From positions 62,001 to 126,000 of IMG/VR virus record IMGVR_UViG_3300032213_002832: a stretch of DNA of 64,000 nt; one strand, written 5' to 3'. The first letter of the stretch is position 1. Every line of letters begins with the position of its first letter. Below are positions 2,793 through 54,735 of this stretch, one piece after another. This DNA is from a virus. Position numbers and translations under genes: made by a program. Below the pieces are notes generated by a model. The model made no database searches, was not told the DNA's origin, and saw only the letters and a list, made by a program, of their open reading frames with translations.

Positions 2793-2818
2793 TAAGTAAT
2801 TGATTTTACTGATAAAAG

Positions 2819-2845: not shown

Positions 2846-2903
2846 TTTATATAACCTATAAAATTATTTATTTATGTACAATATCCATATGATGTGGAGA
2901 TGT

Positions 2904-3581
2904 ATGAAAAAGAAATGTCAATATATAGTTGTAGAAGGTTTGGATGGTGTTGGAAAAACAACACAAACTCAAAAATTAGTAGATTATCTACGTAGTCTAA
3001 ATTATAAGGTTTTACAAACAAAAGAACCAGGTTCTGAACATGCTCCACTAACAATGGAACTTCGTAATATAATGTTAAATGCTAAATATGATACCTCACT
3101 CACTGTCGCAGCAAGAGAACTCATTAGTCTTGCTATACGTTCCATCCATCTAGAAAAAGTTATTATACCAGCCCAATACGAGTACGACTTCATAATACAA
3201 GATCGTGGTATCCTATCTGGTCTCGCTTATGGTGAAGCATGTGGTAACGATTTAGGTTGGATAATGAATATTTCTAATACAATTGTTAAAAATGCGGATA
3301 AAACGCTAGATGGACAACCTACTTTGCTATATGATAAGGTAATAGTGTTATCTGGTAATGCTAAAAGTAGTTTACACAAAGCTGCCCAAGCTAAACAAGA
3401 GTTCACACACGGAGACGCAATAGAAAACAAAGGTGTATCCTTTATGGAATCTGTTGGTATAAATATGTTAAATTATTCTAATTTCTTTAATACTAGACAC
3501 ATTGATGTGGATGGTAAAAATATAGATGAAGTTTTTAGTGAAATCATTAATACTCTTAATTTAGAGGAAACCAATGTATGA
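2904..3581 (+). CDS. tmk: Thymidylate kinase-like dNMP kinase
   Basis: About 225 residues of the P-loop thymidylate kinase family, which phosphorylates dTMP to dTDP. The Walker A motif is GLDGVGKTT near residues 12-20; KEPGSEH corresponds to the family's EPGG region, and a DRG motif near residue 100 corresponds to the DRY/DRx substrate-binding Arg. I chose the ATG preceded by GTGGAG; ten further in-frame codons lie upstream without an SD. The stop overlaps the next start (ATGA), so the two are coupled. It may act on a modified deoxynucleotide, given the unusual ThyA-family enzyme in this genome. Specificity is not determinable. Confidence 0.85.
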   Translation: MKKKCQYIVVEGLDGVGKTTQTQKLVDYLRSLNYKVLQTKEPGSEHAPLTMELRNIMLNAKYDTSLTVAARELISLAIRSIHLEKVIIPAQYEYDFIIQDRGILSGLAYGEACGNDLGWIMNISNTIVKNADKTLDGQPTLLYDKVIVLSGNAKSSLHKAAQAKQEFTHGDAIENKGVSFMESVGINMLNYSNFFNTRHIDVDGKNIDEVFSEIINTLNLEETNV

Positions 3582-5248: not shown

Positions 5249-5267
5249 AATAAACCACTCCAATCAA

Positions 5268-5295: not shown

Positions 5296-5326
5296 AAGCA
5301 TAAGCTTATATACTATGGAGTGAATA

Positions 5327-5641: not shown

Positions 5642-5650
5642 GGAGTTTTT

Positions 5651-7767: not shown

Positions 7768-7770
7768 CAT

Positions 7771-8601
7771 ATGAGCATGAGTAGAACGCCAGAGTTGGAA
7801 ATGTTCCCATATCGCGCGACGGATCAATTTGAACCAACGTTTGAACGATATTGTCCACTTCCAACTGTATGTGATATGAAAGATAATAAGCTTTTTGGTA
7901 TACCATTAAGATCAGCATTGACTGGACAAGAATTAAAAGATAAAACTATTCAGTTCTATATGAATTCAGCAATATCAGAGATTGAGCATATGTTAGATCT
8001 CTATATTACACCAGTTAAATTCTTTGAAACACATGATTATGAGAGATCTAAGTTTACTTGGACTTACAACTACATGAAGTTAGATCATCCAAATATACTG
8101 AGCGTATCTAGAGTAGAGCTTAGTTTTTCCAATAACCCGCTAACACCTGGATTTGTACAGTTTCCATTAGAGTACGTGTATGTGCGTCCTCAAGAAGGCG
8201 TAATACAGCTAGTCCCAGCATACGGTACATCTATATCTGGTTTTCTACTATCTGCTTTTAGTGGTACACAGTTCCATGCCCTTCAATCAGCCGGCACGTC
8301 AAACTTTCCTGGTGGTATACGTGTAGAATATACTGCGGGATTTGCCGAAGATAAAGTACCTGTATCTATATGTGAACTTATTCAAACAATAGCAGCAATT
8401 AATATTTTGTCAGCATTAGGACCCATTTTGTTCCCTCAAACATCTGTCTCTATCTCTGTAGATGGTGCTTCGCAATCAACTGGCGGATTTGGTCCGAAAT
8501 ATCTTAACGATAGAATTGACCAGTTAAAAGAAGAGCGAGATAGAATGGTTGACGTCGTTAAGGGATACTATTGCCGTAGATTTCTCATAGATACTATTTA
8601 A
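7771..8601 (+). CDS. Head-tail connector (adaptor)-like protein
   Basis: A 276-residue protein with an N-terminal helical segment (LKDKTIQFYMNSAISEIEHMLDLYITP) followed by a beta-rich middle (LSVSRVELSF, FVQFPLEYVYVRPQEGVIQLVP) and C-terminal helices ending in a Cys/Arg segment. The helix-beta-helix pattern and location between capsid and tail genes resemble head completion or adaptor proteins of large myo- and siphoviruses. This is pattern-level recognition only. Confidence 0.6.
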   Translation: MSMSRTPELEMFPYRATDQFEPTFERYCPLPTVCDMKDNKLFGIPLRSALTGQELKDKTIQFYMNSAISEIEHMLDLYITPVKFFETHDYERSKFTWTYNYMKLDHPNILSVSRVELSFSNNPLTPGFVQFPLEYVYVRPQEGVIQLVPAYGTSISGFLLSAFSGTQFHALQSAGTSNFPGGIRVEYTAGFAEDKVPVSICELIQTIAAINILSALGPILFPQTSVSISVDGASQSTGGFGPKYLNDRIDQLKEERDRMVDVVKGYYCRRFLIDTI

Positions 8602-8629
8602 GGGATAAAAGTGTTAAAAGGAGATAAAT

Positions 8630-10027
8630 ATGAGTAACAAAAAATGGCAAATAAAGCATCAAGGTAAGTGGTATTCACTTAATCATATAGTTGATAGTGG
8701 TAAACCTTCTCATGAAGAGGGTGGCGGAAACCATTATCATGTAGATGGTCATGAACCAATTAGCCAGCATGATATTGAAGATATTGACATGAGTGGTCAG
8801 CAAGATCTTAATAAGCGTGAAGATAAAATACCCGGCGGTTTAGCTGATAAGAAGAAACCCTCTGACTTTGATAGTGAGAAATTAAAAGCTGGTATCAAAA
8901 TAGAAATGGAACATACTAGTGATAGAGCTGTAGCTGAAGAAATTGCTATGGATCATCTCACTGAAGATTCAGAGTATTATAAGAAACTAAAAGAAGTAGA
9001 AAAATATGATCGCGTAGAAGTAACCCCTGATGGGAAGCGTGAACTTACATATGGAAAAGAAGATCTGAGTAAAGAACCAGACTTGAAAAAACGTTGGAGT
9101 AAACTTAAAAAAGCACTAGATAGCAGTTCTGCCATAATGGATTTAGCTGAAGAGAGTGGAGATGATGAGTCAGATGCTCAACCTGAAGCCCAACCAGATG
9201 CTCAGCCTGAAGGCGACGTTGACCAAAGTGCTCAGCCTCAACCAGACGCACAACCAGAAGATAGCGGTCAAGATGATTCACAGCAAGAAGATGAAGCACA
9301 AAAAGAACAAGAAGTAATTGACTTCCTTCGCCAAGAAGGGTATGATGATACAGAAATCGCATATATTGTACGAAACCACAGTATCCCTATCCCTACAAAA
9401 GATGATAATGCCGCACAAAATGAAGCAGCTAAGGGAGAAATGGAGCAAGCACACTTACAAGAAAAACACGAACTTTCTCATGCGCATAAACAAGATGCTC
9501 ATGAACAAGAACGTCAACAAGATGACGAAGAATATAAGGTTAGGCTAGAGCACAAGAAGCGTATGTCAGAAGTTGAATACGAAAAAGCCAAATCTGACCT
9601 AGTAGATCCTAGTTTAGCTGGAGAGCATAAAAAGAAAATGCTTGATATTGAAGTTGAAATAGCTAGTAAGAAAAAAGAGCAAGCAGCTTTAGAGGTTGAA
9701 CATAAGAAGCGCATGTTAGACTTAGAATATGAGAAAGCTCATAAAGAAGCTAATAAAGAAGATCCAGCAGAAGCTACACAGAAAGAGCAATTACAATTTG
9801 AATTAGACATGAAGAGGATGGAGAAGGAGCTTGAACTTGAATTTAAAAAGAAAGAATTAGCTCTTAAACTAAAACTCACAGAAGAAGCAGCAAAACAAAA
9901 ACATGAACATGCTAAGCAGCAGTTTGAGTCAGACGCGGCAGTTAATTCTCAAGTAAAAGAGAACCAAGCTAAACATAAAATAGCTGAATCTAAAAAACCA
10001 CCAGTTAAGGAGAAAAAAGGTGAATAA
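8630..10027 (+). CDS. DUF5661-like protein with repeats and long coiled coil
   Basis: A 465-residue protein. Residues about 82-125 (SEKLKAGIKIEMEHTSD then AEEIAMDHLTED) match the DUF5661 pattern common in phage and bacterial proteins. Residues about 178-225 contain AQPE/AQPD repeats. The remainder (about 265-460) is a highly charged coiled coil with recurring EHKKRM-x3-EYEKA units. The coiled coil and disorder suggest a fibrous or scaffold-like structural role. SD AAGGAG is present. The stop overlaps the next gene. Confidence 0.7.
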   Translation: MSNKKWQIKHQGKWYSLNHIVDSGKPSHEEGGGNHYHVDGHEPISQHDIEDIDMSGQQDLNKREDKIPGGLADKKKPSDFDSEKLKAGIKIEMEHTSDRAVAEEIAMDHLTEDSEYYKKLKEVEKYDRVEVTPDGKRELTYGKEDLSKEPDLKKRWSKLKKALDSSSAIMDLAEESGDDESDAQPEAQPDAQPEGDVDQSAQPQPDAQPEDSGQDDSQQEDEAQKEQEVIDFLRQEGYDDTEIAYIVRNHSIPIPTKDDNAAQNEAAKGEMEQAHLQEKHELSHAHKQDAHEQERQQDDEEYKVRLEHKKRMSEVEYEKAKSDLVDPSLAGEHKKKMLDIEVEIASKKKEQAALEVEHKKRMLDLEYEKAHKEANKEDPAEATQKEQLQFELDMKRMEKELELEFKKKELALKLKLTEEAAKQKHEHAKQQFESDAAVNSQVKENQAKHKIAESKKPPVKEKKGE

Positions 10028-10337
10028 GATTGAAGCACTTATAAAAGCATTATCAGATGTAAAAGAGAAACTTACAAAAGATGCTTTAGATGACAAGATT
10101 AAAGCTAAAATGAAAGCTGAAATGGATAAGCGTAATTTTGGTGATAAGCAAGTTGCTGACCATTTACGTGACACAGACGAATCTATTCCTGCTGCCCAAC
10201 GTAGTAATATCAAAAACTCACTTAAGATACAAAATGCTCCAAAACCTAAACTAACAATAGTTAAGGGTGAGGAGTGTTATAAGATCAGTGATTTAGGTCA
10301 ATGGGGTATTGAAAAGAAGGATAAAGATAATGGCTAG
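10020..10337 (+). CDS. Small charged protein, unknown
   Basis: A 105-residue protein starting with GTG inside the end of the preceding gene, with SD AAGGAG. It has a Lys/Asp-rich helical N-terminal half and a C-terminal segment KLTIVKGEECYKISDLGQW. No family was recognised. The 8-base overlap suggests translational coupling. Confidence 0.65.
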   Translation: MNKIEALIKALSDVKEKLTKDALDDKIKAKMKAEMDKRNFGDKQVADHLRDTDESIPAAQRSNIKNSLKIQNAPKPKLTIVKGEECYKISDLGQWGIEKKDKDNG

Positions 10338-10749
10338 AAAACAAGATATAGACTGGTCTGACTGGAAAGGTTCTGTTCAATTAACACAACATCCATTATC
10401 AGCACCTATTAATACTAATCTTAAAAAAGGTGCTGATGTTGTTAATAATTTCTTATCGACATGTGCTCAATCTATCTTACGAGATATACCAAAACAACCA
10501 ACAAATGAACGAATGTTTGGTCATCTTGTAAAAACAGAAGCAGAAATTAAGGCTATCAATAAAAAGTGGGAAAATAGCATACACAATCATAAAGAGTTAT
10601 ATAAGCCCATTGATCATCTTAATAAGTCTAAAATAGAAGCTACGTGGGGTGAAGGTAAGTCTTTCAATAGTTTGCTTAAAGAGCAACTCTCTAAAGAGGA
10701 ATTAGCACAAAGAAATATGTGCGTTCAAGATATTGATGTTGCGAAATAA
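10330..10749 (+). CDS. Small helical protein, unknown
   Basis: About 139 residues starting at the ATG preceded by AAGGATAAAG; an earlier in-frame ATG has no better SD. It begins MARKQDIDWSDWKGS and is Asn/Lys-rich and helical. No membrane segment or known motif is present. It ends the accessory operon before a new intergenic promoter region. Confidence 0.65.
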   Translation: MARKQDIDWSDWKGSVQLTQHPLSAPINTNLKKGADVVNNFLSTCAQSILRDIPKQPTNERMFGHLVKTEAEIKAINKKWENSIHNHKELYKPIDHLNKSKIEATWGEGKSFNSLLKEQLSKEELAQRNMCVQDIDVAK

Positions 10750-10756
10750 TACTCTA

Positions 10757-10790
10757 TAGTATGATATACTAGTATAGTGTGATTTAAGAG
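10757..10790 (+). promoter_or_regulatory. AT-rich promoter region for the tail gene block
   Basis: The intergenic segment contains TATAGTATGATATACTAGTATAG, with overlapping -10-like hexamers 40-70 bases before the next ATG. No clear -35 is seen, so the exact promoter is uncertain. Confidence 0.4.
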
Positions 10791-10828
10791 TGACCTAGGG
10801 TGGTCATGCTTGGAAATGGGTGTAAAAT

Positions 10829-11824
10829 ATGTATGAAAAAAGACTCCCAGCAGTCTCTATACGAGCCTTTACTTCCGATGGTGGTACGCTTGGTCGCATA
10901 TTAACTACTCAAGCCCAAGATTTTAAAGTAAAACAACAAGTTATATTAAATTCTAATACCGCTGGCCAATCACGATTAGAGGTTAAGCGCGTAGAATCCG
11001 CTACAGTTTTATATGTAGGTCCTATTTCTACGCCCATCACTGCTAGAAGTGATATATCTAATTATTTAGTAGCAGATTCAGCTTCTATACAAGCAGATGA
11101 ACAACCACGTCCTACCATACCCGAACAAGAAATAGAGCGTTTAACTTACGAAGAAGAACCGACTGTAGCTAGGCGTACAGTTTTAGTAGATGCTTTAGGT
11201 AATAAATATAGCGATACCAATCCATTGCCAGTACAAGTTGATGGTGATATCAATGTTGGCGATATCAATGTAAGATTGTCACATTTAGATAATGTGCCTA
11301 ATCCAGGTGATATCGCCGACTCTGTTCGTGTAGGTGATGGTACTGATCTTTTAGGTATTAATGCCGATGGTAGTATTAATGTTGTAGATGATGCTTTAGC
11401 TGACTTGGTTACTGAAACTAATAACTTAATCACTGATAGTAATACTTTACTTGATGATATTAATACTCAATTAACCAGCGGTACGATTAAAGTAGACGAT
11501 GACCAAACACAAACCGCACTCAATAACATTCTAGGACAATTACAAGCCGGTGGTATAATCATAGGGACTGAGAACGGCACACCAACTGGTGTTCAGCATG
11601 TTTTTGTTAATAATATCAAAGAGATGATATTAAAAGCGAAAGATAGAACTGGGACAATAGTGTACGCAGATTTTGGAACTAAAGATCAGCGCATTACTAA
11701 AATCACATATACGGCACCAAGTATCGGAACCGGAGCTGGCTTTACAGCTGAAAAAACATTCACTTACACCCAAGTCGGAAATCGCTATCGAAGAGATACT
11801 CCTGGCAATTGGTCTTTGGTATAA
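10829..11824 (+). CDS. Tail or baseplate structural protein, unknown
   Basis: A 331-residue beta-rich protein. The N-terminal 100 residues look like a small globular domain. The middle contains Asp/Gly-rich turns (VDGDINVGDINV, VGDGTDLLG) and a helical trimerisation-like stretch, LADLVTETNNLITDSNTLLDDINTQL. The C-terminus ends YRRDTPGNWSLV. The same architecture is frequent in phage tail-tip and fibre-adaptor proteins. It opens the tail or fibre block. Confidence 0.65.
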   Translation: MYEKRLPAVSIRAFTSDGGTLGRILTTQAQDFKVKQQVILNSNTAGQSRLEVKRVESATVLYVGPISTPITARSDISNYLVADSASIQADEQPRPTIPEQEIERLTYEEEPTVARRTVLVDALGNKYSDTNPLPVQVDGDINVGDINVRLSHLDNVPNPGDIADSVRVGDGTDLLGINADGSINVVDDALADLVTETNNLITDSNTLLDDINTQLTSGTIKVDDDQTQTALNNILGQLQAGGIIIGTENGTPTGVQHVFVNNIKEMILKAKDRTGTIVYADFGTKDQRITKITYTAPSIGTGAGFTAEKTFTYTQVGNRYRRDTPGNWSLV

Positions 11825-11835
11825 AAGAGGGAACT

Positions 11836-13911
11836 ATGAAAACAATATTAGCAGACTTAGTAGCAAACGTAGGCAATACCTATGATCAAACCCGTACCAC
11901 AATCCAAGGTAGGGTATCGTCGAAGGTTATCAATACACAGACCGTACTTGGTCCTCCTTTAACAAAGTTTATTGACGTTTTTTCCGATACTGGACAAACG
12001 CCAACAGGTACAATCCGTGTTACTGATGCCAATAGACTTTTTGTGTGTGGAGCACCGACAGCGGGTAATATACCAATATTACTATACGATTTTAATTTAA
12101 CGACTGGCGCTTACGCTTATGTCGGCCGTATTAACGTAGCTATGCCAAACACAGCATCTACTACGCATACCATAAGAGCCTTAAGGGTTGCAGTCGACTC
12201 TACAAACACTGGCTGGAAGATTTTTTTAGTCACAACTGGATCAGTAACTATAAACGGTGGTACTTTTTTAATTAATAGTATCGACAAAACCGATTTCACT
12301 CCAGGTGGTACGTCCATCCCATTCGCAACAGCAAATAACCAAAAAGCTGTATATTTCTTGCAAGATCCAGCAAATATTGGAGCTGGACAACTTAACATTG
12401 CATCGGTTGGTGCTGCTTACGTTTCTTCAACAAATAAACTATATGTTCATAACGGTGTTGCAGCAACACATCAATACTATGTATATGACACGACTACCAG
12501 TCCAACTTACACAACCAATACCGTCAACGTATCTGTAGCATCTCCCGGTGTTGTCTCGGATGCCGGACACAGTTTTGTCCTTAATACGCCCGTTGTTTTT
12601 ACTAGTGGTCCTTTGCCGACTGGACTTGTCGTGGGTACGGTTTACTTCGTCAACAACCCTGTTGCTGGTGTAAGTTATGAATTAAAAGCAACTACAGGTG
12701 GTTCATCAATTAACACAACCGGCTCCCCCGCGACTGGAGTTGCGATAGGTAGAGCTTTTGGAACTACTGGTTCAAATTTTGTGCATAAAACTGGTAACTT
12801 ACCCGCATTATCAGGAACCCTGCTTGCTAACGACTCTGAAGAGTATGCCGTTCCGGTTGCTTCGCCAATCAACGGTGGTGTGCTTAACGGTAATGATTGT
12901 GTATTTTTAGCTACTACAACCAACTTATATTTGGGGTTAATTTCTCAACTAACGTCCGGCGCAGTTACTTGGACCTCTTTGTCAAACTCGAACACATTGG
13001 GTACAGTTAATCAAATCACGGCACCTACACCAACATTCGCAACTTGGTCAAACATATTAGATCAAGCTGTTTATATCACAAACACCTCAAAATTTGTATC
13101 GAAAAAATTAGAAAACAACGTCATCAGATCTATTACCGGCGAACTAAATAATCAATACTATGAAGGATTTTCTCCAGCAACTATTGAATTAGGCTTAGTT
13201 ACTGTCGTCGCTCTCACCAGAAGAGATGGTTGGATTTTTGCAGCGGGTGGTACGACAGGGCAAAGAGGAGTAATTGCTGCCGACTTTAAATCTGATTATT
13301 CAAATGATTTTTCCTATATCGTTACAAAAGTCTTAGATAATCAAAACGCCAAATTAAGATTTTATACTACTTATGAACAACTTTGGGATTCGACTGGTAA
13401 CATCAAGCTTCAGTATAGAACCTCTGGCTTTGGATCTATCAGCGGTGGCTGGATAGATGTTCCAGAATACGAAGACTTGGCTGGTTTGGTGATAGGAAGT
13501 AATCAAATACAGTTTAAGATTTCATTCAGCCTGCAATCAGAAGGAGCATCAGCTCCCGCTCAAGTTAATGAGTTAATAGCCGGTATTGATCCAAATGATG
13601 GGGTTAGTGATAATTGGGAATTTAGCGATGATTTCTCTGACAATGGTGTGCCATCAAGATCCGCATTCAGGTTAAAATTAGCATACGCTTCTGTCGTACC
13701 TACTCTTTATTATAGAGCATATGACTTATCAGATGCTCTATTGATTAATAACAACTCGGTCACTAATGCCGCCAACTTTGAATACTCAACCAATAATGGT
13801 ACATCATGGTTGCCTTTGGGAACTATCCCCAATACTGTAGGTACTTTAGTTAGGTATTCATTTACTACACCCCCAGGAGTTGATGTGCGCCCAGGACTTA
13901 AGGAGTCATAA
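11836..13911 (+). CDS. Large beta-rich tail or fibre protein
   Basis: A 691-residue protein. The chosen ATG has SD GAGGGA and begins after the previous stop; a longer in-frame version overlaps the previous gene without an SD. Composition is Thr/Ser/Asn/Gly/Val-rich throughout, with many short beta-strand patterns and no membrane segment. A segment near 230-310 (TNTVNVSVASPGVV, VVFTSGPLPTG, VGTVYFVNN) resembles phage tail beta-sandwich modules. It lies two bases before the repeat-bearing fibre protein, suggesting one structure. Confidence 0.65.
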   Translation: MKTILADLVANVGNTYDQTRTTIQGRVSSKVINTQTVLGPPLTKFIDVFSDTGQTPTGTIRVTDANRLFVCGAPTAGNIPILLYDFNLTTGAYAYVGRINVAMPNTASTTHTIRALRVAVDSTNTGWKIFLVTTGSVTINGGTFLINSIDKTDFTPGGTSIPFATANNQKAVYFLQDPANIGAGQLNIASVGAAYVSSTNKLYVHNGVAATHQYYVYDTTTSPTYTTNTVNVSVASPGVVSDAGHSFVLNTPVVFTSGPLPTGLVVGTVYFVNNPVAGVSYELKATTGGSSINTTGSPATGVAIGRAFGTTGSNFVHKTGNLPALSGTLLANDSEEYAVPVASPINGGVLNGNDCVFLATTTNLYLGLISQLTSGAVTWTSLSNSNTLGTVNQITAPTPTFATWSNILDQAVYITNTSKFVSKKLENNVIRSITGELNNQYYEGFSPATIELGLVTVVALTRRDGWIFAAGGTTGQRGVIAADFKSDYSNDFSYIVTKVLDNQNAKLRFYTTYEQLWDSTGNIKLQYRTSGFGSISGGWIDVPEYEDLAGLVIGSNQIQFKISFSLQSEGASAPAQVNELIAGIDPNDGVSDNWEFSDDFSDNGVPSRSAFRLKLAYASVVPTLYYRAYDLSDALLINNNSVTNAANFEYSTNNGTSWLPLGTIPNTVGTLVRYSFTTPPGVDVRPGLKES

Positions 13912-13913
13912 TA

Positions 13914-15263
13914 ATGGCTAATTTCTTAGTTAGAAATAATTTTTATCAAGGCACGAGTCAAGCATGTATCGTGGATTTAACACCGCCTACATTCGCGGGC
14001 ATTAACTTCCTTGATGTTGAGTCTAGAGGTCAAATAAGGTCTGGGTGGTCGGCAGCAACCGACGCATCAGCTCCTATTCGGTACGAGGTCTATATCAAGG
14101 CTTCGACCGCAACTGGCCTTTTTAACTTCGCTAATATCATTGCAGTAACACCAAACCTCCAGTACGATATCTTTACTCTACCAGATGGATCTTTCTTACA
14201 AAACGGAGTAACTTACTTTGTTGGAGTAAGGGCGATAGATGGTGTTAATAATAGAGATAGTAATACTATATCTCAAAGTGTTATTTCAACTGGTGTCTTA
14301 ACCACAATTGATACATATAACGTAAGTTGCAGTTTCTCTAATGACAATAACGATGATTTCAATTTGACGGCGTGGGCGGACAAGAATGGATCTCTAGCCG
14401 TTGCTCCTTCTGCGACTGTCGGTGTAGCGAATTATCAAGTGTATGATGAAAACGGCGCTGCTGTAGCTGGTATGTCAGGTTCTGGCATATCGGCTAATGT
14501 CAATGGATTATTCATATTTCCTCCCGTAGCAGACCTGACGAACCGACTCACTGAACATTATCAAGTTAGGGTGGGAATCATTGTAGACTCAGAAGAAAGA
14601 GTTAATTATACGCCAATAGACAGTTTCCAGAGAAATTATGAGATTGCTGGTATTGCTGATGCTGACGCTACTGGACAGATTGTTGGATCTTTCTGGATCA
14701 ACAGAAATGGTTCGATCGTTACTACTGGACTTGGTGATGGATCGTATCAATTATTTACATCTGACGGGATTGCGCTACCACTCACGGAATCTGGAATATC
14801 GGCCGATTCAAATGGATTTTTCGTAATAACTCCGGTATTCTCCCCCTTCCCGCTAGATCCAACCAGGCCATTTATTGTAAGAGCTGTTGTTGACATTGAC
14901 GGTCATATGCATGAACAAAACCTCATTCTGGGCAATGAGCAAGAAGTCTTTGATATTAAAGCTGTATTCTCGATTAATGCGTCTAACCAGCTTCGTGCTA
15001 CCTTTTGGTGTGCTAAAAATCATGAACAGATCAGCGGTGTTGTACTTGGAACAGCTAGTTATCAAGTATATGATGCCTCTGGAGCGGCTGTTTCTGGATT
15101 GACACAGTCTGGTTTAACCGCCGATGGAAATGGCTATTATCAAATCACTCCGGTTTTGGCTACATTAATAACCGATTTAACTCATTACACCGTTAAAATC
15201 ACTATGACGGTAGCTGGTTATCCAAGGATTGCAAGTAAAGCCTTCACTCTTTTAGGTACATAA
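13914..15263 (+). CDS. Fibre-like protein with three tandem beta domains
   Basis: A 449-residue protein. Residues about 20-120 resemble a fibronectin-III domain (RSGWSAATDASAPIRYEVYI). Three homologous units of roughly 105 residues follow. Each has an 'Ala/Phe-x-Asn-x-Asn ... Trp ... ' strand pair, a YQVYDxxGAAV or YQLFTSDGIAL strand, and SGxxADxNGxFxxxPV. The repeats fit a stalk or receptor-binding tail protein. SD AAGGAG precedes the ATG, and the stop overlaps the next start. Confidence 0.7.
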   Translation: MANFLVRNNFYQGTSQACIVDLTPPTFAGINFLDVESRGQIRSGWSAATDASAPIRYEVYIKASTATGLFNFANIIAVTPNLQYDIFTLPDGSFLQNGVTYFVGVRAIDGVNNRDSNTISQSVISTGVLTTIDTYNVSCSFSNDNNDDFNLTAWADKNGSLAVAPSATVGVANYQVYDENGAAVAGMSGSGISANVNGLFIFPPVADLTNRLTEHYQVRVGIIVDSEERVNYTPIDSFQRNYEIAGIADADATGQIVGSFWINRNGSIVTTGLGDGSYQLFTSDGIALPLTESGISADSNGFFVITPVFSPFPLDPTRPFIVRAVVDIDGHMHEQNLILGNEQEVFDIKAVFSINASNQLRATFWCAKNHEQISGVVLGTASYQVYDASGAAVSGLTQSGLTADGNGYYQITPVLATLITDLTHYTVKITMTVAGYPRIASKAFTLLGT

Positions 15264-15808
15264 TGGCTATTTCACGGAAATTATTAGCTCACGAAGATAA
15301 TGAGACTGTGCAATGGTTAAAAGTTGACCATGCCAGTCGTTACATTCAGATGCATAGTTCCGATTGGCAATTCCTATTCAATCCAGAGAGTACCCTTTCG
15401 GCCAGTGAACAGATTATCAAGATCGCTGCCAAATTTGATGATAATACTTTCAATAATATCCGAATGAGTGCGTACCTTTATGATCAGCAAAATGCGACAA
15501 TTGGCAATGCAGCGACATGTGTATTTAAAGTATACAAGGTATCTGGAGCTGATTGGGTAGAAACCTTACTTGCGACAGTTAATGGAACTCAACTCTCAAA
15601 TAATTATTTTTATGTCGCGCCAGACCTCAATACTTTGGGTAACTTAGACTATCAGGGCGGCGATACTATCATGATAGAAGCTACCATAATTAGGCTTACG
15701 ACTACTTATAGAGATAGAATCTATGTCAATCACTTGGGTATCTACGACAACATAACACGACTTCGCGGGGACGTGGAATTCCTAGAAGTTACAAAGATGG
15801 ATGAATAA
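15263..15808 (+). CDS. Tail-associated protein, unknown
   Basis: A 181-residue protein coupled to the fibre gene by a TAATG overlap. Alternating hydrophobic and polar residues suggest a jelly-roll or beta-sandwich (VFKVYKVSGADWVETLLATV, DTIMIEATIIRL). It is likely a tail-tip or fibre subunit from context; no family was recognised. Confidence 0.65.
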   Translation: MAISRKLLAHEDNETVQWLKVDHASRYIQMHSSDWQFLFNPESTLSASEQIIKIAAKFDDNTFNNIRMSAYLYDQQNATIGNAATCVFKVYKVSGADWVETLLATVNGTQLSNNYFYVAPDLNTLGNLDYQGGDTIMIEATIIRLTTTYRDRIYVNHLGIYDNITRLRGDVEFLEVTKMDE

Positions 15809-15809
15809 C

Positions 15810-16292
15810 ATGGTTAGAAAATATGCAATTCTAAAAAATCAAGTAATTACAGAAATCCTCTCTCTAGAGGAAGAGCAGGTTGCTGACGCAGCTCGTAATG
15901 CCGAAACTATCATCGATATCGAAGATATGTTACCACTTCCAGCAATTGGATATATTCTTAATGGAAATACCTTGCAAATTCCGCAAGGGTTAAGTTCTCG
16001 TGAAGAATTTGAAATTGAACTTAACAATCGAAAGTCAATTTTTGGTTCTGAACTGGCCAGAGAATCTGTCAATAGGATTGGAGCGAGAAACAAGATACTT
16101 AATAAGACTGGAGCGCAAGTTACAGCTCTTTTGACTACGCTGCTCGGAGTTAAATCTTTGATGGAGACCGGAGCATTAGGCACTGCCAGAAACGCCTGTA
16201 ATCAACTTAAGTATGTGTACACGGAATATACTGATATATTTGATTTAATCATACAAAAAATTAATGCTTTTGAGGCTACCAATGGCCTCTAA
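15810..16292 (+). CDS. Tail module protein with helical C-terminus, unknown
   Basis: About 160 residues; an ATG three codons upstream overlaps the previous stop. The N-terminal part (KYAILKNQVITEILSLEEEQ, IGYILNGNTLQIP) resembles small adaptor domains seen in phage tail proteins. The C-terminal half is helical and amphipathic, compatible with a fibre chaperone or a structural protein. The call is based on position and pattern. Confidence 0.6.
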   Translation: MVRKYAILKNQVITEILSLEEEQVADAARNAETIIDIEDMLPLPAIGYILNGNTLQIPQGLSSREEFEIELNNRKSIFGSELARESVNRIGARNKILNKTGAQVTALLTTLLGVKSLMETGALGTARNACNQLKYVYTEYTDIFDLIIQKINAFEATNGL

Positions 16293-20429: not shown

Positions 20430-21285
20430 ACGATTTAATAGCCTTGCGAAGTTTATCTTTAGTGCTATCTTTAAACTCTAATTTATTAAATATATCATCT
20501 ATATCTTTTGTATACTGAGGTCGCATTCTTAAATCTTCTAAAGAAATATCTACATCTAATTTAACTAGATCTGTCAGTTGTTTGCTTAACCTTATCTTAT
20601 CCATACTCTTTATAAGCTTATCTCTATACTTAGCTGGTGTACTGTGTAGCCTATACTCAATCTCTTCCACACCACCATATTGAGATAGTAGGTCTTGCGC
20701 AGCTTTTGGCCCAATACCTTCTCCACCAGGTATGTTGTCTGCCTTGTCTCCACATAGTGCCAAGTAATCACTGATCTGACTTGGCTTAACACCAAACTTC
20801 TCAAATGCCGTTGCTTCATCATATGTTAGGTTCTTCATAGAATCAAATATAGAGACATTCTCATCAATAAGCTGTAACATATCCTTGTCGCCAGTTAAAA
20901 TAACAATATCTAGCTCATGTTTAAACTTATGTGTAATAGTAGCAATCAGATCATCTGCCTCATACCCAGACGCAGTGATTCCATATATGCCTAGCATACC
21001 TATTATCTTTCTTATAATCAATTCTTGCGCAGATACGGCGTTTACTTTCACTCTATTAGCTTTGTATTCTGGATAGATATCTCTACGTACACTTTTGCCA
21101 TCTTGCGCATCATATGTTATCGCTACGTACTTAGGTTTCTTTTCAGAAATGAATTTACATAATAAGCTTATTGTGCCATATATAGCACCAGAAGGCATCC
21201 CATGGCTCGTATATAGATCACTATGTGCGTGAAACGAACGATGGATAAAACTGCTTATGTCGATTATATATAGTTTATCTTTCAT
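20422..21285 (-). CDS. 5'-3' exonuclease / flap endonuclease
   Basis: A 287-residue enzyme of the PolA N-terminal (FEN) family, which removes RNA primers and 5' flaps. Visible motifs are YIIDISSFIHRSFHA (metal Asp near 9), YDAQDGKSVRRDIYPEYKANR (helical arch Arg/Lys), GYEADDLIATI and LTGDKDMLQL (metal acids), and CGDKADNIPGGEGIGPKAA (H3TH DNA-binding). Length matches stand-alone phage enzymes such as T5 D15. Its start lies inside the upstream gene end. All key acidic residues appear to be present. Confidence 0.93.
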   Translation of the reverse strand: MKDKLYIIDISSFIHRSFHAHSDLYTSHGMPSGAIYGTISLLCKFISEKKPKYVAITYDAQDGKSVRRDIYPEYKANRVKVNAVSAQELIIRKIIGMLGIYGITASGYEADDLIATITHKFKHELDIVILTGDKDMLQLIDENVSIFDSMKNLTYDEATAFEKFGVKPSQISDYLALCGDKADNIPGGEGIGPKAAQDLLSQYGGVEEIEYRLHSTPAKYRDKLIKSMDKIRLSKQLTDLVKLDVDISLEDLRMRPQYTKDIDDIFNKLEFKDSTKDKLRKAIKSYE

Positions 21286-21643
21286 GTTGCGGTGATTTCA
21301 ATATGATTTCGTAAACTGGTTTACCTAACTTCATCATCTCTTTCTTCATGCTTAGACTACCTTTAGATGTTCCACTCCATATAAGGAGCAAAGCATCTCC
21401 ATATTCAGCCATTCTTTTATTTCGTATAGGTCCAGCAGCATTGCCATCATTCTTCCAATTGGCTTGGAATACTTTAGGTTCTTTCTCTAAGAATAAAGAG
21501 GACCACTCTTCGCCAGCTTCATCCACAAAGCCACCACTACCACTCACAACCTCTTTAACTTTTAAGCGAAAGTGCTTAACACATTGGTCCACAAAGTCAG
21601 AGTCAACTAGCAACTCTCTACTTCCAGCAATAACTAATCTCAT
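21275..21643 (-). CDS. SLOG-superfamily nucleotide-binding protein (DUF2493/YspA-like)
   Basis: A 122-residue protein with the pattern IAGSRE at the N-terminus, VVSGSGGFVDEAGEEW, AGPIRNKRMAEYGDALLLIWSGTSKGS and a C-terminal strand KPVYEI. This is the Rossmannoid SLOG fold of the DUF2493/YspA family, predicted to bind nucleotides or their derivatives. It sits between dCMP deaminase (ATGA overlap) and the exonuclease, suggesting a nucleotide-related role. The ligand is unknown. Confidence 0.85.
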   Translation of the reverse strand: MRLVIAGSRELLVDSDFVDQCVKHFRLKVKEVVSGSGGFVDEAGEEWSSLFLEKEPKVFQANWKNDGNAAGPIRNKRMAEYGDALLLIWSGTSKGSLSMKKEMMKLGKPVYEIILKSPQHER

Positions 21644-22092
21644 ACAAATGCCTCATACTTTAATCTGATATACCCTTCTGGAGTTTGTGATTCAATAACT
21701 CTAATATCTTTCATATTCATTATAGTATCGAAGTCTCTATACTTAGTTTCACACACTACTTCAGTTATACCACTTTGATATAAGAGTCGCATACAAGAAA
21801 CACAGGGGCTCATCGTACATACAATCATACAGTCTTTGGTAGAGATGCCGCTATACGCGCAATTCGCAATTAGGTTTACTTCGCTATGTACAATCACGGC
21901 ATACTTCTCTGGCCTAGTATTAGGCAAACTATCATCAGGAGCATTCCTAACAAAGCCATTACACCCTGTAGCTATGATAGCTCCACTGTTGTTATTAATG
22001 AGTACTGAACCCACTTTTGTTTCAGCATCATGACTTCGTAAAGATACATTTTTAGCAATTGCCATTGCTGTTTCAATCTTACTAGGTCTCAT
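21640..22092 (-). CDS. Deoxycytidylate (dCMP) deaminase
   Basis: About 150 residues converting dCMP to dUMP. Zinc motifs are HSEVN (near 66) and SPCVSC (near 95). DAETKVGSVL and NGFVRNAP near the N-terminus are typical of the phage and ComEB enzymes. The ATG preceded by GAGGGG is chosen over an in-frame GTG five codons upstream. It begins a coupled run with the SLOG and exonuclease genes. With the ThyA/ThyX relatives it feeds pyrimidine synthesis. Confidence 0.92.
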   Translation of the reverse strand: MRPSKIETAMAIAKNVSLRSHDAETKVGSVLINNNSGAIIATGCNGFVRNAPDDSLPNTRPEKYAVIVHSEVNLIANCAYSGISTKDCMIVCTMSPCVSCMRLLYQSGITEVVCETKYRDFDTIMNMKDIRVIESQTPEGYIRLKYEAFV

Positions 22093-22149
22093 CCACACAC
22101 CCCTCACATGATATCTTTTAAGATTATACGGTTTAAATATAAAATCCTA

Positions 22150-22365: not shown

Positions 22366-22553
22366 TCTTCTAAATCTGTTAGGGTTTCATCTAGTTCTAT
22401 ATCCAGCTCAGTACCGTCTGGTGGGGTGGCAGCTTTAAAACGCTTCACCTCAACTTCTTCTTCTACCCAACCCCTTTTAGGGCATTCATATCTAACAATA
22501 GTCTTATATACCAACTCTATCTTATCTTCATTACCTTCTTTTCTTTTTCGCAT
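22362..22553 (-). CDS. Small acidic protein, unknown
   Basis: A 63-residue protein overlapping the end of the ThyX-like gene. The sequence contains ECPKRGW and a Glu/Asp-rich C-terminus (LDIELDETLTDLED). No motif was recognised. It may act on its neighbour given the overlapping translation signals. Confidence 0.6.
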   Translation of the reverse strand: MRKRKEGNEDKIELVYKTIVRYECPKRGWVEEEVEVKRFKAATPPDGTELDIELDETLTDLED

Positions 22554-23109
22554 TCTCTGCCCTCATTAATTGAACAACCAAATCCCACTCACCATGTAGG
22601 CAATCCTCTATCGCCTTACGGTAGGATTCTACCGGCTTTGGTAAGCCTACTTGTTCAATATACCTCATCCAAGAGGTTAATGAGCCATATACTACTAATG
22701 TATTATATATACTTATTGGAGATATAACCTGTGATATAAACCTATCACAATGATCCGATTGATATGCCTGAGGATTGATTAATAATGCCTCTGTCGTCAT
22801 TTCAATATCGGCCTGTATCGTTTTGCTAGTTTCCAAATCTTGTGCGCCTACGGCACCAATATCCGGTATATAAGCCTCTAATTTACCACTCGTCTTCTCT
22901 GATGAGCATCTTAAGCCAAACTCTGAAAAAGTAAGCTGTACAAATAAAGGACACCGGATACTAAGCATGACATGGGTCATATCGGTGATCCGGTTATCTA
23001 TTGTGCCTCTAAAGTGGGTTTTTGAGATCCGCTTAAAGTCTTCCCGCATAGGAGACCCACTAAGTAGAGCAACCCAACCTTTATCAAGTACTGGCGTCCT
23101 GTTCAGCAT
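22531..23109 (-). CDS. Divergent ThyX-like protein lacking the RHRxxS motif
   Basis: A 192-residue protein that aligns by eye to flavin-dependent thymidylate synthase. DKGWVALLSGSPMREDFKRISKTHF corresponds to the N-terminal DxGxVxLxxxMGxD region. MLSIRCPLFVQLTFSEFGLR (48-67) occupies the place of the CPxFVxRQWxRHRxxS signature, and GSLTSWMRYIEQ (142-153) matches GSLRSWxHFxExR. The RHR and catalytic Ser are absent, so catalysis by the canonical mechanism is doubtful. It may be a subunit, a regulator or an enzyme on another substrate. It overlaps the downstream and upstream genes. Confidence 0.6.
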   Translation of the reverse strand: MLNRTPVLDKGWVALLSGSPMREDFKRISKTHFRGTIDNRITDMTHVMLSIRCPLFVQLTFSEFGLRCSSEKTSGKLEAYIPDIGAVGAQDLETSKTIQADIEMTTEALLINPQAYQSDHCDRFISQVISPISIYNTLVVYGSLTSWMRYIEQVGLPKPVESYRKAIEDCLHGEWDLVVQLMRAENAKKKRR

Positions 23110-23559: not shown

Positions 23560-24045
23560 CTAGATAGGTTTAGCTTTTAAAACGTTTTTAAGATAAGTCT
23601 CAGCTTGTAATTTAGTTTTATGTTTTTTGCGTAGAGGATTTGAAATGGTTTTGCCGTTTCTAATAATGCCATATCCACTATCAATTTCATTTAAATCGTA
23701 TGTTACACCAGTTTCATCAGCATACTGATTAGATACCGATTTCGCTGGCACACTAACAGTTGGTTTGGCAATTGATGATAATCTACTTGTTACGGCCTTT
23801 TTAGCTATGATAAAAAATTCATCACCACTACTGCGATTCTTTCTAGATACATAGTCACCCTGCTGAAGTATATCTTTATATACTTTAATATCAACTGGCC
23901 CATGAATAACTGTTCCGTTTTGCTCTTTAGCTTCTACATGCGTATATTTCCCACTACGAATCTTTTCTATCTCAGATTTCCATATTAGTGTAGTATTCGC
24001 AAAACTCTCTGCTGATGTGGACTTCTTAATAGTTAATACTCTCAT
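23560..24045 (-). CDS. Unknown protein
   Basis: A 161-residue basic protein preceded by AAAGGAGAAGG. The C-terminal part contains TGVTYDLNEIDSGYGIIRNGKTISNPLRKK, resembling a small domain that recurs in phage proteins of unknown role. No catalytic residues are evident. Confidence 0.65.
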   Translation of the reverse strand: MRVLTIKKSTSAESFANTTLIWKSEIEKIRSGKYTHVEAKEQNGTVIHGPVDIKVYKDILQQGDYVSRKNRSSGDEFFIIAKKAVTSRLSSIAKPTVSVPAKSVSNQYADETGVTYDLNEIDSGYGIIRNGKTISNPLRKKHKTKLQAETYLKNVLKAKPI

Positions 24046-24090: not shown

Positions 24091-24867
24091 TTAACCTAGC
24101 ATCTTTAATATTGCGTCTTTATCTTTTTCATAGATATGGCAAGAATGAACCACGTGAGTGTAGTCGCCTTTAGTAAGTGTTGGGTACGTAGGTTTTAACT
24201 CATCAATCATCTTATCCATAAGAGATACAAAAAATGGAAGATCATACACTAGTCCGCGAAATAAATCATTAGACCTCATAACTACTGAAAAATACAACTT
24301 ATCATTACGTATTAAAAAATTACCGTGCATGGTACAGGTCTGATCTTTATTACCCATATATTGATGTTCTGGTAAACTAAATCGCAATATAGCTTGACGC
24401 GTATCTTTGTCTGCCTTTAAAGATTCTAAACACCATTCCCACGGCGATCGATAAATAGATTGAGCTCTTATACTAATCCCACCATCTTCAAAGCTACGCT
24501 TTTTAGTATACTCATAATTCTCATTACCACAACTCTTGTTTTCCCATATCAAATACCCGTAAGCCGAATTGATAGTCCCATCTGGATTGGCTATCTTCTC
24601 CCAAAACTTAGAGGCCTTAGCAAAATCTTCTACACGATTAGAGCGAGAATTGTAAAGCTCAACCTCTTTAGCTGTATAGTCAGCTATTACTTTATTTCGC
24701 TCTAAGTCTTTAGTGATAATAGGTTCAGAAACTGGATCAGAGACTGTAAAAGTGTAGTTTAAGATCTCTCTAACTGGCATTCCACGTGGTGATGCTATAA
24801 AATCTGGAAAGTACCATACTTGCTGTAGCGCGTCTAAATACGCTTCATGTATATTCTTGTATGTCAT
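24091..24867 (-). CDS. ThyA-family pyrimidine methyl- or hydroxymethyltransferase with Asp at the Asn177 position
   Basis: A 258-residue thymidylate synthase-fold enzyme. Cys178 aligns with catalytic Cys146 of E. coli ThyA; Arg198-Ser199 and Asp201 match Arg166-Ser167 and Asp169 with identical spacing; His244 and Tyr246 match His207 and Tyr209. SAYGYLIW near 101 is the usual N-terminal motif. Asp209 replaces Asn177 (GLVYDL for GLPFNI), the substitution that distinguishes dCMP hydroxymethylase from dUMP methylase, and Thr179 follows the catalytic Cys instead of His. This argues for dCMP, or another non-dUMP substrate, and for a modified pyrimidine. It overlaps the nucleotidyltransferase start by four bases. 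Confidence 0.85.
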   Translation of the reverse strand: MTYKNIHEAYLDALQQVWYFPDFIASPRGMPVREILNYTFTVSDPVSEPIITKDLERNKVIADYTAKEVELYNSRSNRVEDFAKASKFWEKIANPDGTINSAYGYLIWENKSCGNENYEYTKKRSFEDGGISIRAQSIYRSPWEWCLESLKADKDTRQAILRFSLPEHQYMGNKDQTCTMHGNFLIRNDKLYFSVVMRSNDLFRGLVYDLPFFVSLMDKMIDELKPTYPTLTKGDYTHVVHSCHIYEKDKDAILKMLG

Positions 24868-25532
24868 TTATATCCCTCTAAGAATTCTTCATCTCTATTA
24901 GATCTCATTTTCAATAATTCTACAAACATTGCGCGTTGATATTTATCTACCTTAAAACCTTTTTCAATATATTTTACTAATCTTTTTACAGTGATGCTTC
25001 TAGCTTCAGTCTGAAAAACAATTCTCTTATCTACACAGTCACCTATCGCACCTTGAACACTAATGACTTGGCGCTTAACTGGATCATAAGCTATGGCACA
25101 AGCTCTTATATCGAAGTGACTTATGAGATCTTCTGGGGTATTAAATGGTACACCTACAATTAGGTTGTAAGTAACGTTACGATAAACATGCGCACATAAA
25201 TCGTACATAAAATTAGTAGGTTTACTAAACCCATTAATAGCACACCATAAAGTAGCATGTTCTTTAGAATGGAAGTATATGTCAATATCGTTGTGAATTA
25301 TGCTTTGATTTATATAGTGGCACATATAAGAACCAGCTATAATCTCACCATTATCTACGTATTCTGACTCATTGAGCCAACGTAAGGCATTAATCGGACT
25401 AGTTAATATTAAGTTTTCATTTCTATAAAGAAATTCTGGTACTGGTTTATCGTTTAGTAAAAAACTATTTTGAATATCATCAATTTGCTTTTTATAATGT
25501 TCTTCCGCATTATATTCCATGAGTATATCCAT
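24864..25532 (-). CDS. Putative nucleotidyltransferase
   Basis: A 222-residue protein with GSYMCHYINQSIIHNDIDIYF near 66-86, resembling the GG/GS...DxD signature of the polymerase-beta nucleotidyltransferase fold. FDIRACAIAYD (about 143-153) supplies a possible third acidic strand. Similar minimal nucleotidyltransferases occur in large phages and giant viruses. It has SD AGGGG and a stop/start overlap with the ThyA-family gene, so the two are co-translated. The substrate is unknown. Confidence 0.6.
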   Translation of the reverse strand: MDILMEYNAEEHYKKQIDDIQNSFLLNDKPVPEFLYRNENLILTSPINALRWLNESEYVDNGEIIAGSYMCHYINQSIIHNDIDIYFHSKEHATLWCAINGFSKPTNFMYDLCAHVYRNVTYNLIVGVPFNTPEDLISHFDIRACAIAYDPVKRQVISVQGAIGDCVDKRIVFQTEARSITVKRLVKYIEKGFKVDKYQRAMFVELLKMRSNRDEEFLEGYK

Positions 25533-25544
25533 ATAAACCCCTTT

Positions 25545-25934
25545 TTACTCGTCTTCAAACCTATCACCAATTACTTCTTCGACTGGACTCATCCAGACCC
25601 CGTAGCCGTAACGCTTCTTGGTAAGCTTTTTCATAAGTTGACCAACTCTATTATATAAGTGCTGAAACACAAACGTAAACTCTTTAACACTCCTACCATC
25701 TGCTGTACGATACTCAGGATTATAGTTTTGTAAAGCTATTACCAGCTGATAATAAAGTTCTTGGCGCATATCAGCCATGGTCATGCCAGTATTACCTAAC
25801 GATATGTCTGAATCACCAGCAGACATATTAGCTTCTTTCCAATTCTTAACAATACTATCTCTTAAGTACTTATTAACTAATGGCATATACTTCTTAATAT
25901 CAGCGTTTGTAACTACCCTACGTTGCTTATTCAT
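25545..25934 (-). CDS. Putative sigma-like factor (gp55-like region 2)
   Basis: A 129-residue protein. ADMRQELYYQLVIALQNYNPEY then EFTFVFQHLYNRVGQLMKKLTKKRYG resembles sigma region 2 as seen in T4 gp55-type late sigma factors (QEMIADGIEASIKGLHNFD...). No region 4 is present, also as in gp55. It overlaps the upstream gene by four bases, and the CCGAT element lies just inside that upstream gene. An RNA polymerase-binding role is inferred. Confidence 0.55.
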   Translation of the reverse strand: MNKQRRVVTNADIKKYMPLVNKYLRDSIVKNWKEANMSAGDSDISLGNTGMTMADMRQELYYQLVIALQNYNPEYRTADGRSVKEFTFVFQHLYNRVGQLMKKLTKKRYGYGVWMSPVEEVIGDRFEDE

Positions 25935-37747: not shown

Positions 37748-38257
37748 TCACTTGCCTTCTAGTACTATTCTTTCAAAGTTATCATCCATAAACCTAAGCT
37801 CATTGTAATAAGCTATTTGAGCATCTATTAGTTTTTTAGAACCACAACTAACATAATAAGCAGCATTAAAACAATTCTTAGCTGTCCTAAAAAAAAGACC
37901 ATCTTGTTCAGCTACAGTAAAAATAGTGTAGTCAGCAGAAATAAGTGGATATAGATATGAGTCACTAATAAAAACGCCATTACCCTGTTGGTCTAATAAG
38001 CCATTAATTACAACATTAGTGTTTCTAGCAGCATCTCTACATTGTTCACTTGTCGCTTTATCTTCAAGCCATAGTTCAACTAATTCAATCCCCTTTACAA
38101 AATAAGGTTCTTGACGCCATATATTACACCCTTGGTAAGCACAGAATAAGGCAAACCTTATACAGTCTTTATGAGATAATTGTTTCAACTGTTCTTCATT
38201 TATGCCACCAAATGCTACATAATTCTCTTGACAATTAGTTCTTATCATGTTATCCAT
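37748..38257 (-). CDS. Unknown protein, weak Imm-5-like pattern
   Basis: A 169-residue protein. FALFCAYQGCNIWRQEPYFVKGIELVELWLEDKATSEQCRDAARN resembles putative immunity (Imm-5-like) and other helical domains of unknown role, in which a Cys/Trp helix precedes AIxxxxxWLxGK. The resemblance is weak. Confidence 0.6.
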   Translation of the reverse strand: MDNMIRTNCQENYVAFGGINEEQLKQLSHKDCIRFALFCAYQGCNIWRQEPYFVKGIELVELWLEDKATSEQCRDAARNTNVVINGLLDQQGNGVFISDSYLYPLISADYTIFTVAEQDGLFFRTAKNCFNAAYYVSCGSKKLIDAQIAYYNELRFMDDNFERIVLEGK

Positions 38258-52881: not shown

Positions 52882-54735
52882 ATGAGTATATCAACTGAGA
52901 TCCTGTCAGACATAACTGTTTTTACGAAATATGCTCGTTATTGGCCAGAACTTGGAAGAAGAGAAACTTGGGAAGAAATATGCTTACGCAACATGGCTAT
53001 GCACATTAAGAAATTTCCTTTATTAAAAGAAGAAATAACAAAAGTATATACTGATTTTGTTATTACTAAAAAAGTATTACCAAGTATGAGGTCTCTTCAG
53101 TTCGCTGGCAAACCTATCGAACGTGATCCTAACAGGATATACAATTGTTGCGCTCTACCTGTAGATGATTATCATGCTTTCAGCGAGACTATGTTCTTAC
53201 TCCTAGGTGGTACTGGTGTTGGTTATTCTGTACAAAAGAAGCATGTACGTAAACTACCCTCTATCATTAAGCCAACCAAACATCGTCGTTATGTAGTTGC
53301 TGACTCTATTGAAGGTTGGGCAGACGCAGTTAAAGCACTTGTCCAAGCTTATATGCTTGGTAGGTCTTTGCCTGTCTATGATTTCTCCGACATACGCGAG
53401 AAAGGTGCTCCACTTATTACCTCAGGTGGTAAGGCTCCAGGTGCTCAGCCACTTAAAGATTGCTTACATAACTTACAAAAGATACTTGATAGCGTGGATG
53501 AAGGCGCCCAGCTGACACCGCTACAAGTTCATGACATGATGTGCTACATTGCTGATTCAGTTTTAGCTGGTGGAATACGTCGTGCCGCACTCATCTGTTT
53601 ATTTAGTTTAGATGATGAAGATATGTTGACATGTAAATTCGGCAACTGGTATGAACTAAACCCTCAAAGAGCACGTGCTAATAACTCTGCTGTAATCGTT
53701 CGTGACTTGGTTGAAGAAGACGACTTCAGAATACTATGGGATAAGATCAAGGCCTCTGGTAGTGGAGAGCCCGGCTTCTATCTCACTAATGATCCTGACT
53801 GGTTGACAAATCCATGTTGCGAAATTGCGTTGCGTCCATTCCAGTTCTGTAACCTTTGTGAAATCAACGCTAATGATATAGTTGATCAGGCTGATTATAA
53901 GGAGCGAGCTGTCGCTGCTGCTTTCATCGGCACATTACAAGCTAGCTATACTGACTTCCATTACCTAAGGGAGATATGGAAGAAGACTACTGAGAAGGAT
54001 GCTCTTATCGGCGTCTCTATGACTGGCATTGCTTCTGGTGCGGTACTTAGCTTAGATGAAGTCGCTGCTGCTGAAGCTGTATTGAAAGAGAACATACGAG
54101 TCGCTGATTTAATCGGAATTAATCATGCCGCAAGAACCACCGCGATCAAACCTGCCGGCACGACATCCTGTGTCCTAGGATCATCCTCTGGCATCCACGC
54201 GTGGCACGATGAATATTTCATTAGACGTATGAGAATTGGAAAGAATGAATCTATTTACACGTATTTAAATATTAATCACCCTGAATTACTTGAAGATGAA
54301 TACTTTAAACCTCATCTAATGAGCGTAGTCTCTCTACCTATTAAGGCTCCAGAAGGTGCTATACTTCGTCATGAGAGTGCGATTGACCTACTTGAAAGAG
54401 TTAAGCGATTCAGTAAAAACTGGGTTAAGACTGGACACAGAGATGGAGCTAATACACATAACGTCTCTGCCACTATCAATATCAAAGAAGATGAATGGGA
54501 TGATGTTAGAGGGTGGATGTTTACTAATCGAGAACACTTCAATGGATTAAGTGTATTACCTCATGATGGCGGAAGTTATATACAGGCGCCTTTTGAGTCA
54601 TGTACTAAAGAAAAGTATGAAGAAATGATAGGGCATTTAAGAGGTATTGATCTTACAAGGATAGTTGAGGTACGAGATGATACAGACTTAAGTGGTGAGC
54701 TCGCTTGTGCGGGTGGAAGCTGTGAGTTGAAATAA
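52882..54735 (+). CDS. Adenosylcobalamin-dependent ribonucleotide reductase (class II)
   Basis: A 617-residue enzyme. IYNCCALPVDDY (Cys near 89-90) and NPCCEIALRPFQFCNLCEIN (311-330, with catalytic Asn311-Cys313-Glu315) are RNR active-site motifs. RTTAIKPAGTTSCVLGSSSG is the substrate-phosphate loop, and the C-terminal CAGGSC gives the redox Cys pair (609/614). The size and lack of a small subunit fit monomeric RTPR-type B12 enzymes of the Lactobacillus type. It is a single + strand transcription unit. It supplies dNTPs, if host cobalamin is available. Confidence 0.9.
   Translation: MSISTEILSDITVFTKYARYWPELGRRETWEEICLRNMAMHIKKFPLLKEEITKVYTDFVITKKVLPSMRSLQFAGKPIERDPNRIYNCCALPVDDYHAFSETMFLLLGGTGVGYSVQKKHVRKLPSIIKPTKHRRYVVADSIEGWADAVKALVQAYMLGRSLPVYDFSDIREKGAPLITSGGKAPGAQPLKDCLHNLQKILDSVDEGAQLTPLQVHDMMCYIADSVLAGGIRRAALICLFSLDDEDMLTCKFGNWYELNPQRARANNSAVIVRDLVEEDDFRILWDKIKASGSGEPGFYLTNDPDWLTNPCCEIALRPFQFCNLCEINANDIVDQADYKERAVAAAFIGTLQASYTDFHYLREIWKKTTEKDALIGVSMTGIASGAVLSLDEVAAAEAVLKENIRVADLIGINHAARTTAIKPAGTTSCVLGSSSGIHAWHDEYFIRRMRIGKNESIYTYLNINHPELLEDEYFKPHLMSVVSLPIKAPEGAILRHESAIDLLERVKRFSKNWVKTGHRDGANTHNVSATINIKEDEWDDVRGWMFTNREHFNGLSVLPHDGGSYIQAPFESCTKEKYEEMIGHLRGIDLTRIVEVRDDTDLSGELACAGGSCELK

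Follow-up and report, generated by a model that had tools for sequence, protein, structure and literature searches.

Which reaction is catalyzed by a thymidylate synthase-like phage protein that carries an aspartate where Escherichia coli ThyA has an asparagine? The gene in question lies in a stretch of 64,000 nucleotides (the window), which comprises positions 62001–126000 of a 167,515-bp IMG/VR virus record (G000). A sequence-only reading had proposed an enzyme that acts on cytosine, akin to T4 dCMP hydroxymethylase, and had allowed for a phage DNA containing a modified cytosine or another modified pyrimidine. As judged from its sequence, the gene very probably encodes a dCMP 5-hydroxymethylase, and the phage DNA probably contains hydroxymethylcytosine.

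A ThyA-superfamily enzyme with two fixed substitutions

The coordinates of the open reading frame (Table 1) are exactly those proposed earlier, where the strand had not been given: the plus strand contains many stop codons over this interval, and the 258-residue protein is encoded on the minus strand. It matches Pfam family PF00303 (E = 2e-12) and PHROG 160, thymidylate synthase (E = 2e-33), and at the level of sequence its assignment to the ThyA superfamily is secure. Cys178, Thr179, Arg198, and Asp209 stand at the positions assigned to them, and the spacings of 20 and 11 residues between Cys178, Arg198, and Asp209 equal those between Cys146, Arg166, and Asn177 of E. coli ThyA. Both proposed substitutions were recovered as well: Asp209 aligns with E. 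coli Asn177 and T4 Asp179, and Thr179 with E. coli His147 and T4 Thr149. Because the protein has both family matches and because none of the 16 related IMG/VR loci compared (33–70% identity) departs from Asp at the base-specifying position and Thr directly behind the catalytic Cys, we regard these substitutions as more than chance. They coincide with the top two positions of the MetaGPA study, in which E. coli positions 177 and 147 displayed the highest differential conservation between the thymidylate-synthase domains of cytosine-modified and unmodified phage contigs (PMC8670742). Asp177 was typical of the contigs with modified DNA, and the pairing of a thymidylate-synthase domain with a dCMP deaminase, a frequent partner, occurs on cytosine-modified contigs (PMC8670742).

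Table 1. Features of the window and, where marked G000, of the whole record. Fractions are counts over 23 related loci, several of which are near-duplicates, with each gene tallied separately.
Feature	Coordinates	Strand	Remarks
Predicted dCMP 5-hydroxymethylase, ThyA superfamily, T4 gp42-like, 258 aa	24091..24867	-	Sequence; key residues C178 (nucleophile), T179, R198, S199, D209, D175, S101, Y103, E68
dCMP deaminase (PF00383)	21640..22107	-	Same operon-like block; 18/23
ThyX-fold protein, 192 aa, module member	22531..23109	-	Lacks RHRxxSxNExSxRY; 18/23
Small conserved protein, 140 aa	23084..23506	-	26-bp overlap with ThyX-like gene; 17/23
161-aa ORF between hydroxymethylase and 140-aa protein	23560..24045	-	No family
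222-aa ORF upstream	24864..25532	-	4-bp overlap with hydroxymethylase start; 6/23
Conserved 129-aa ORF	25545..25934	-	18/23
Thymidylate-kinase family protein	2874..3581	+	Sequence
Ribonucleotide reductase	52882..54735	+	Match to a class II (B12) insertion domain; would supply deoxynucleotides
Canonical ThyA	G000:27116-27979		Cys-His, Asn, long tail
N6/N4 DNA methylase	G000:36448-37167		

Residues predicted to specify base, sugar, and reaction

Active-site residues were compared in an alignment of 30 sequences, which included E. coli ThyA, T4 gp42, SPO1 gp29, Xp15, and phage G. In the 258-residue enzyme, the catalytic Cys178 is combined with Asp209 at the position of T4 Asp179, pointing to cytosine as the base. 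The hydroxymethylation signature proposed on the basis of the T4 ternary complex, an Asp three residues before the Cys together with an interacting Ser-x-Tyr motif (PMC6400193), is present as Asp175 (T4 Asp145) and Ser101/Tyr103 (T4 Ser94/Tyr96), and it is invariant in the 17 aligned rows made up of this enzyme and its 16 IMG/VR relatives. In E. coli ThyA, the canonical ThyA of this phage, and one Bacillus phage ThyA, the base position is Asn, the Cys is followed by His or Val, and no Asp stands at −3. The SPO1 dUMP hydroxymethylase has the Asp at −3 yet Asn at the T4-179 position; because it separates the two traits, the Asp at −3 tracks hydroxymethylation and the base-position residue tracks cytosine. 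The C-terminal lid is missing, with 12 residues following the HxY motif as opposed to 28 in T4 gp42 and 55 in E. coli ThyA.

An enzyme with the cytosine specificity of Asp209 could in principle retain a ThyA-like hydride transfer and yield 5-methyl-dCMP, and thereby 5-methylcytosine in DNA; a passage of PMC8670742 cites the Asn-to-Asp exchange alone as converting ThyA into a dCMP methylase. We consider a methylase improbable, as Asp175 at Cys−3, Ser101, and the missing lid are features of hydroxymethylases that are absent from E. coli ThyA, and the T4 D145N mutant was unable to produce 5-hydroxymethyl-dCMP (PMC6400193).

Somewhat less probable still is a pathway in which the linked dCMP deaminase, one of the most constant neighbors of the gene, would turn hydroxymethyl-dCMP into hydroxymethyl-dUMP, so that the DNA would contain 5-hydroxymethyluracil instead. 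A direct dUMP hydroxymethylase resembling SPO1 gp29, which has Asn, would be a simpler route to that base, and T4, which has both a dCMP hydroxymethylase and a dCMP deaminase, still makes hydroxymethylcytosine. The other modified pyrimidine that the initial reading had allowed for is disfavored.

We attach hardly any weight to the notion that the protein still acts on dUMP as a thymidylate synthase, the name that Pfam and PHROGs give it, since Asp and Thr replace Asn177 and His147, the lid is absent, and the genome holds a separate canonical ThyA. In a phylogenetic tree that is weak, with long branches flagged by the tree program, a branch with support of 97/95 separates the Asn-type synthases (E. 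coli, BcoS136, and the phage's own ThyA, together with PaMx74) from the group that includes the 258-residue enzyme.

In a single-sequence search of the Protein Data Bank, the CMP 5-hydroxymethylase MilA came out on top (E = 1e-17), followed by T4 gp42 dCMP 5-hydroxymethylase and its mutants (E = 8e-16), with the best true thymidylate synthase at E = 2e-5. Despite that top match, a MilA-type ribonucleotide enzyme hydroxymethylating CMP is barely credible, given that the CMP/dCMP switch residues of MilA, Ala176 and Lys133 (PMC5175136), are replaced by the deoxyribose-type Ser199 and Arg157 (T4 Ser169 and Arg123), and that T4 dCH ranks first among solved structures, far above MilA, in an alignment-profile search whose profile contains T4 gp42 and is to that extent not independent.

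Several T4 residues are not kept: Phe174 and Arg177 correspond to Arg204 and Val207 in the alignment, and Arg124 to Gln158. Phe174 and Arg177 contact the glutamate tail and PABA moiety of the folate; their positions vary in other Asp-type phage enzymes aligned (BF503P4, EntVFW, and Xp15 at 177), and we did not take them as defining.

Because the protein combines the Asp at Cys−3 and Ser-x-Tyr with the cytosine Asp, the deoxyribose Ser/Arg pair, and almost no C-terminal tail, we predict a dCMP 5-hydroxymethylase and not an enzyme that methylates dCMP or that acts on CMP or dUMP. Support for the original proposal of a cytosine-acting, T4-like enzyme comes from the closest matches among solved structures, from the signatures published for specificity and hydroxymethylation, as far as the sequence reveals them, and from the separate canonical thymidylate synthase. 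The present evidence goes beyond that proposal: it favors a hydroxymethylase over a methylase, and dCMP over CMP as the substrate.

Proposed reaction and nucleotide supply

In the predicted reaction, Cys178 would attack C6 of dCMP while Asp209 would recognize and protonate N3 of the cytosine. Glu68 would aid the activation of methylene-tetrahydrofolate, from which the methylene group would be delivered to C5. With no C-terminal lid in place and with a water molecule activated by Asp175, the exocyclic methylene would be hydrated instead of reduced, giving 5-hydroxymethyl-dCMP and tetrahydrofolate. A kinase of the phage or the host would then lead to hmdCTP for the phage DNA polymerase; the thymidylate-kinase family protein in the window is a candidate for phosphorylating the modified deoxynucleoside monophosphate.

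The canonical ThyA of the same genome would supply dTMP, and a dUTPase gene is also present. No canonical ThyX was found in this genome using PF02511. A strong ThyX match occurs elsewhere in 10 of the 20 relative records; a second PF00303 match is missing from all 20, which may be fragments. That the relatives all have the hydroxymethylase-type gene follows from the way the loci were found, which used this gene; the dTMP synthase, where found, is a separate gene.

Elsewhere, two adjacent minus-strand genes at 40406-41809 and 41844-42875 of the window appear by eye to encode an NAD+ salvage pair, made up of a nicotinamide phosphoribosyltransferase and an NMN adenylyltransferase-Nudix protein. 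A 763-residue protein (43897-46188, minus strand), possibly an RNA repair enzyme, has a metallophosphatase domain at its N terminus and a P-loop kinase domain at its C terminus, and its long middle part gave no Pfam match in our scan. Positions 37748-38257 of the window and G000:128876-135298 encode several diverged members of one paralogous family, which share a motif resembling LSHKDxVRFALFCANQ.

A conserved module with a degenerate ThyX-fold protein

The predicted hydroxymethylase is part of a gene block conserved among related loci (Table 1). The upstream 222-residue protein has weak similarity to nucleotidyltransferases, below the cut-off, and the 140-residue protein gave no sequence or fold match. 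The profile of the 192-residue family aligns with Thermotoga maritima ThyX over nearly the full length (E = 2e-7), and three family members reach PF02511, the best with E = 6e-4. An AlphaFold model of the window's protein (pLDDT 82) retrieved T. maritima ThyX with Foldseek (E = 7e-11), and ThyX structures matched at E values of about 1e-10 and TM scores of about 0.7; profile and model agree on a ThyX fold. The RHRxxSxNExSxRY flavin/dUMP motif is absent or deleted in all 12 family members, and the alignment displays replacements of the ThyX arginines and asparagines that we take to be flavin/dUMP contacts. In the true ThyX proteins that were read, from three relatives, the motif is kept in recognizable form. 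With this motif lost and the contact residues replaced, the 192-residue protein is unlikely to be a thymidylate synthase.

A tblastn search of 50,697 phage records returned no homologue of this protein. A scan of viral contigs with the family yielded 20 loci (plus L016), all 20 of which contain the hydroxymethylase and deaminase genes; four of them (L071, L076, L079, and L086) are on contigs absent from the first scan. Every homologue located, including that at L001:12458-13000, is linked to a dCMP hydroxymethylase. The protein may work together with the hydroxymethylase, or it may itself carry out an additional modification. We tentatively raise the idea, which we hold to be possible though rather doubtful, that the hydroxymethylase, the small protein, the degenerate ThyX-fold protein, and the dCMP deaminase make up a cytosine-modification system not described before. 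The ThyX-derived protein would have taken on a new role in it, either as an accessory or scaffold of the hydroxymethylase or as an enzyme acting further on the hydroxymethylated nucleotide.

Other genes accompany the module in relatives. A uracil-DNA-glycosylase-superfamily gene lies close to the dCMP deaminase gene at L001:15037-15441, L013:16302-16718, and L017:15103-15507; its cluster occurs in 8 of the 16 loci clustered, and the L001 copy matches PF03167 (E = 4e-10). In this window its place is held by a different gene (21275-21643). A pyrimidine-dimer DNA glycosylase family protein (PF03013) is encoded near the module at L001:16262-16762, and 6 of the 16 loci have a member of its cluster. 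A 366-residue ORF at L006:13560-14657 carries the dCMP deaminase C-terminally behind an extra region of about 220 residues.

State of the phage DNA

If incorporated, the modified nucleotide would presumably serve to protect the DNA from host nucleases, by analogy with T4. The carbamoyltransferase family PF02543 was not found in this genome or 20 relatives, and no glycosyltransferase turned up among 24 families in a Pfam scan of 54 otherwise unidentified ORFs of at least 100 residues. MazG-family pyrophosphatase (PF03819), which would remove dCTP, is absent from all 21 records. Because none of the three enzyme types was found in these searches, complete replacement of cytosine is not evident, and unglucosylated 5-hydroxymethylcytosine is the simplest predicted product; its further tailoring by unfamiliar enzymes is possible.

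The genome avoids the tetranucleotide TGCA, with about 161 occurrences on one strand versus 566 expected (observed/expected about 0.28). Within the window the ratio is 0.04–0.32 in blocks after position 16000, and the depletion is weaker in the structural block at 1–16000 (0.56–0.68); for all other tetranucleotides in the window it is not under 0.71. In the relatives (L001–L023) the TGCA ratio is near 1 (0.78–1.08), with the exception of 0.54 in the 5.5-kb L016. A natural guess is selection by a host nuclease that reads TGCA. Such a nuclease may be blind to 5-hydroxymethylcytosine or specific for it, or protection may be incomplete; as TGCA is a palindrome containing C, its avoidance could mean that the cytosines of this phage are not fully protected. 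In the pieces of the T4 genome examined, GATC is depleted (0.20–0.37) despite the modified DNA, and because these pieces also avoid one palindrome, the avoidance of TGCA neither proves nor refutes a modified cytosine. A host search in a genome collection returned one match, a contig binned in a Cytophagales MAG. Judging by its identical length and range, it is apparently the phage contig L010 itself, and we claim no host.

The prediction extends dCMP hydroxymethylation to an uncultivated phage group, the closest protein among 50,697 phage records being only about 40% identical, and places 5-hydroxymethylcytosine in the product of a DNA polymerase unlike that of T4. Such DNA would bear both on how these phages can be handled and detected with enzymes and on how exposed they are to host defenses that depend on modification. 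The enzyme would be of a known kind in a new phage, and its ThyX-like partner is the unexplained part: it would exemplify a thymidylate-synthase fold that has lost its flavin chemistry and is still genetically tied to the unrelated ThyA fold.

Comparison with known systems

T4 gp42 shares with the 258-residue enzyme the catalytic Cys followed by Thr, the Asp at Cys−3, the Ser-x-Tyr motif, and the Asp179 equivalent, in addition to counterparts of Glu60, Ser169, Arg123, and the His/Tyr sugar contacts, and the missing C-terminal lid. The T4 genome also has a separate thymidylate synthase and a dCMP deaminase, as found here. The two enzymes are, however, only 28% identical, and the phage protein has an insertion of about 30 residues around positions 111–140 in addition to the replacements of Arg124, Phe174, and Arg177. 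In T4, b-gt lies next door, whereas no adjacent glucosyltransferase was found here; by sequence inspection, the polymerase of this phage is DnaE-type; and the hydroxymethylase is linked to a ThyX-like gene, which is not known from T4.

Gp36 of Xanthomonas phage Xp15 has the same active-site signature and a neighboring dCMP deaminase, but it is 30% identical, and the carbamoyltransferase near it has no counterpart found in this phage. Streptomyces MilA, of the mildiomycin pathway, shares the cytosine-type Asp and the Cys-Thr pair; it differs in Ala176 and Lys133 for ribose, in a large helical C-terminal extension, and in not being a phage protein. SPO1 gp29, a dUMP 5-hydroxymethylase, has the Asp at Cys−3 that goes with hydroxymethylation, but Asn both at the base-specifying position and after the Cys. 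The 192-residue module protein, finally, has fold and profile similarity in common with flavin-dependent ThyX, but it is shorter than the 220–234 residues of the matched T. maritima entries.
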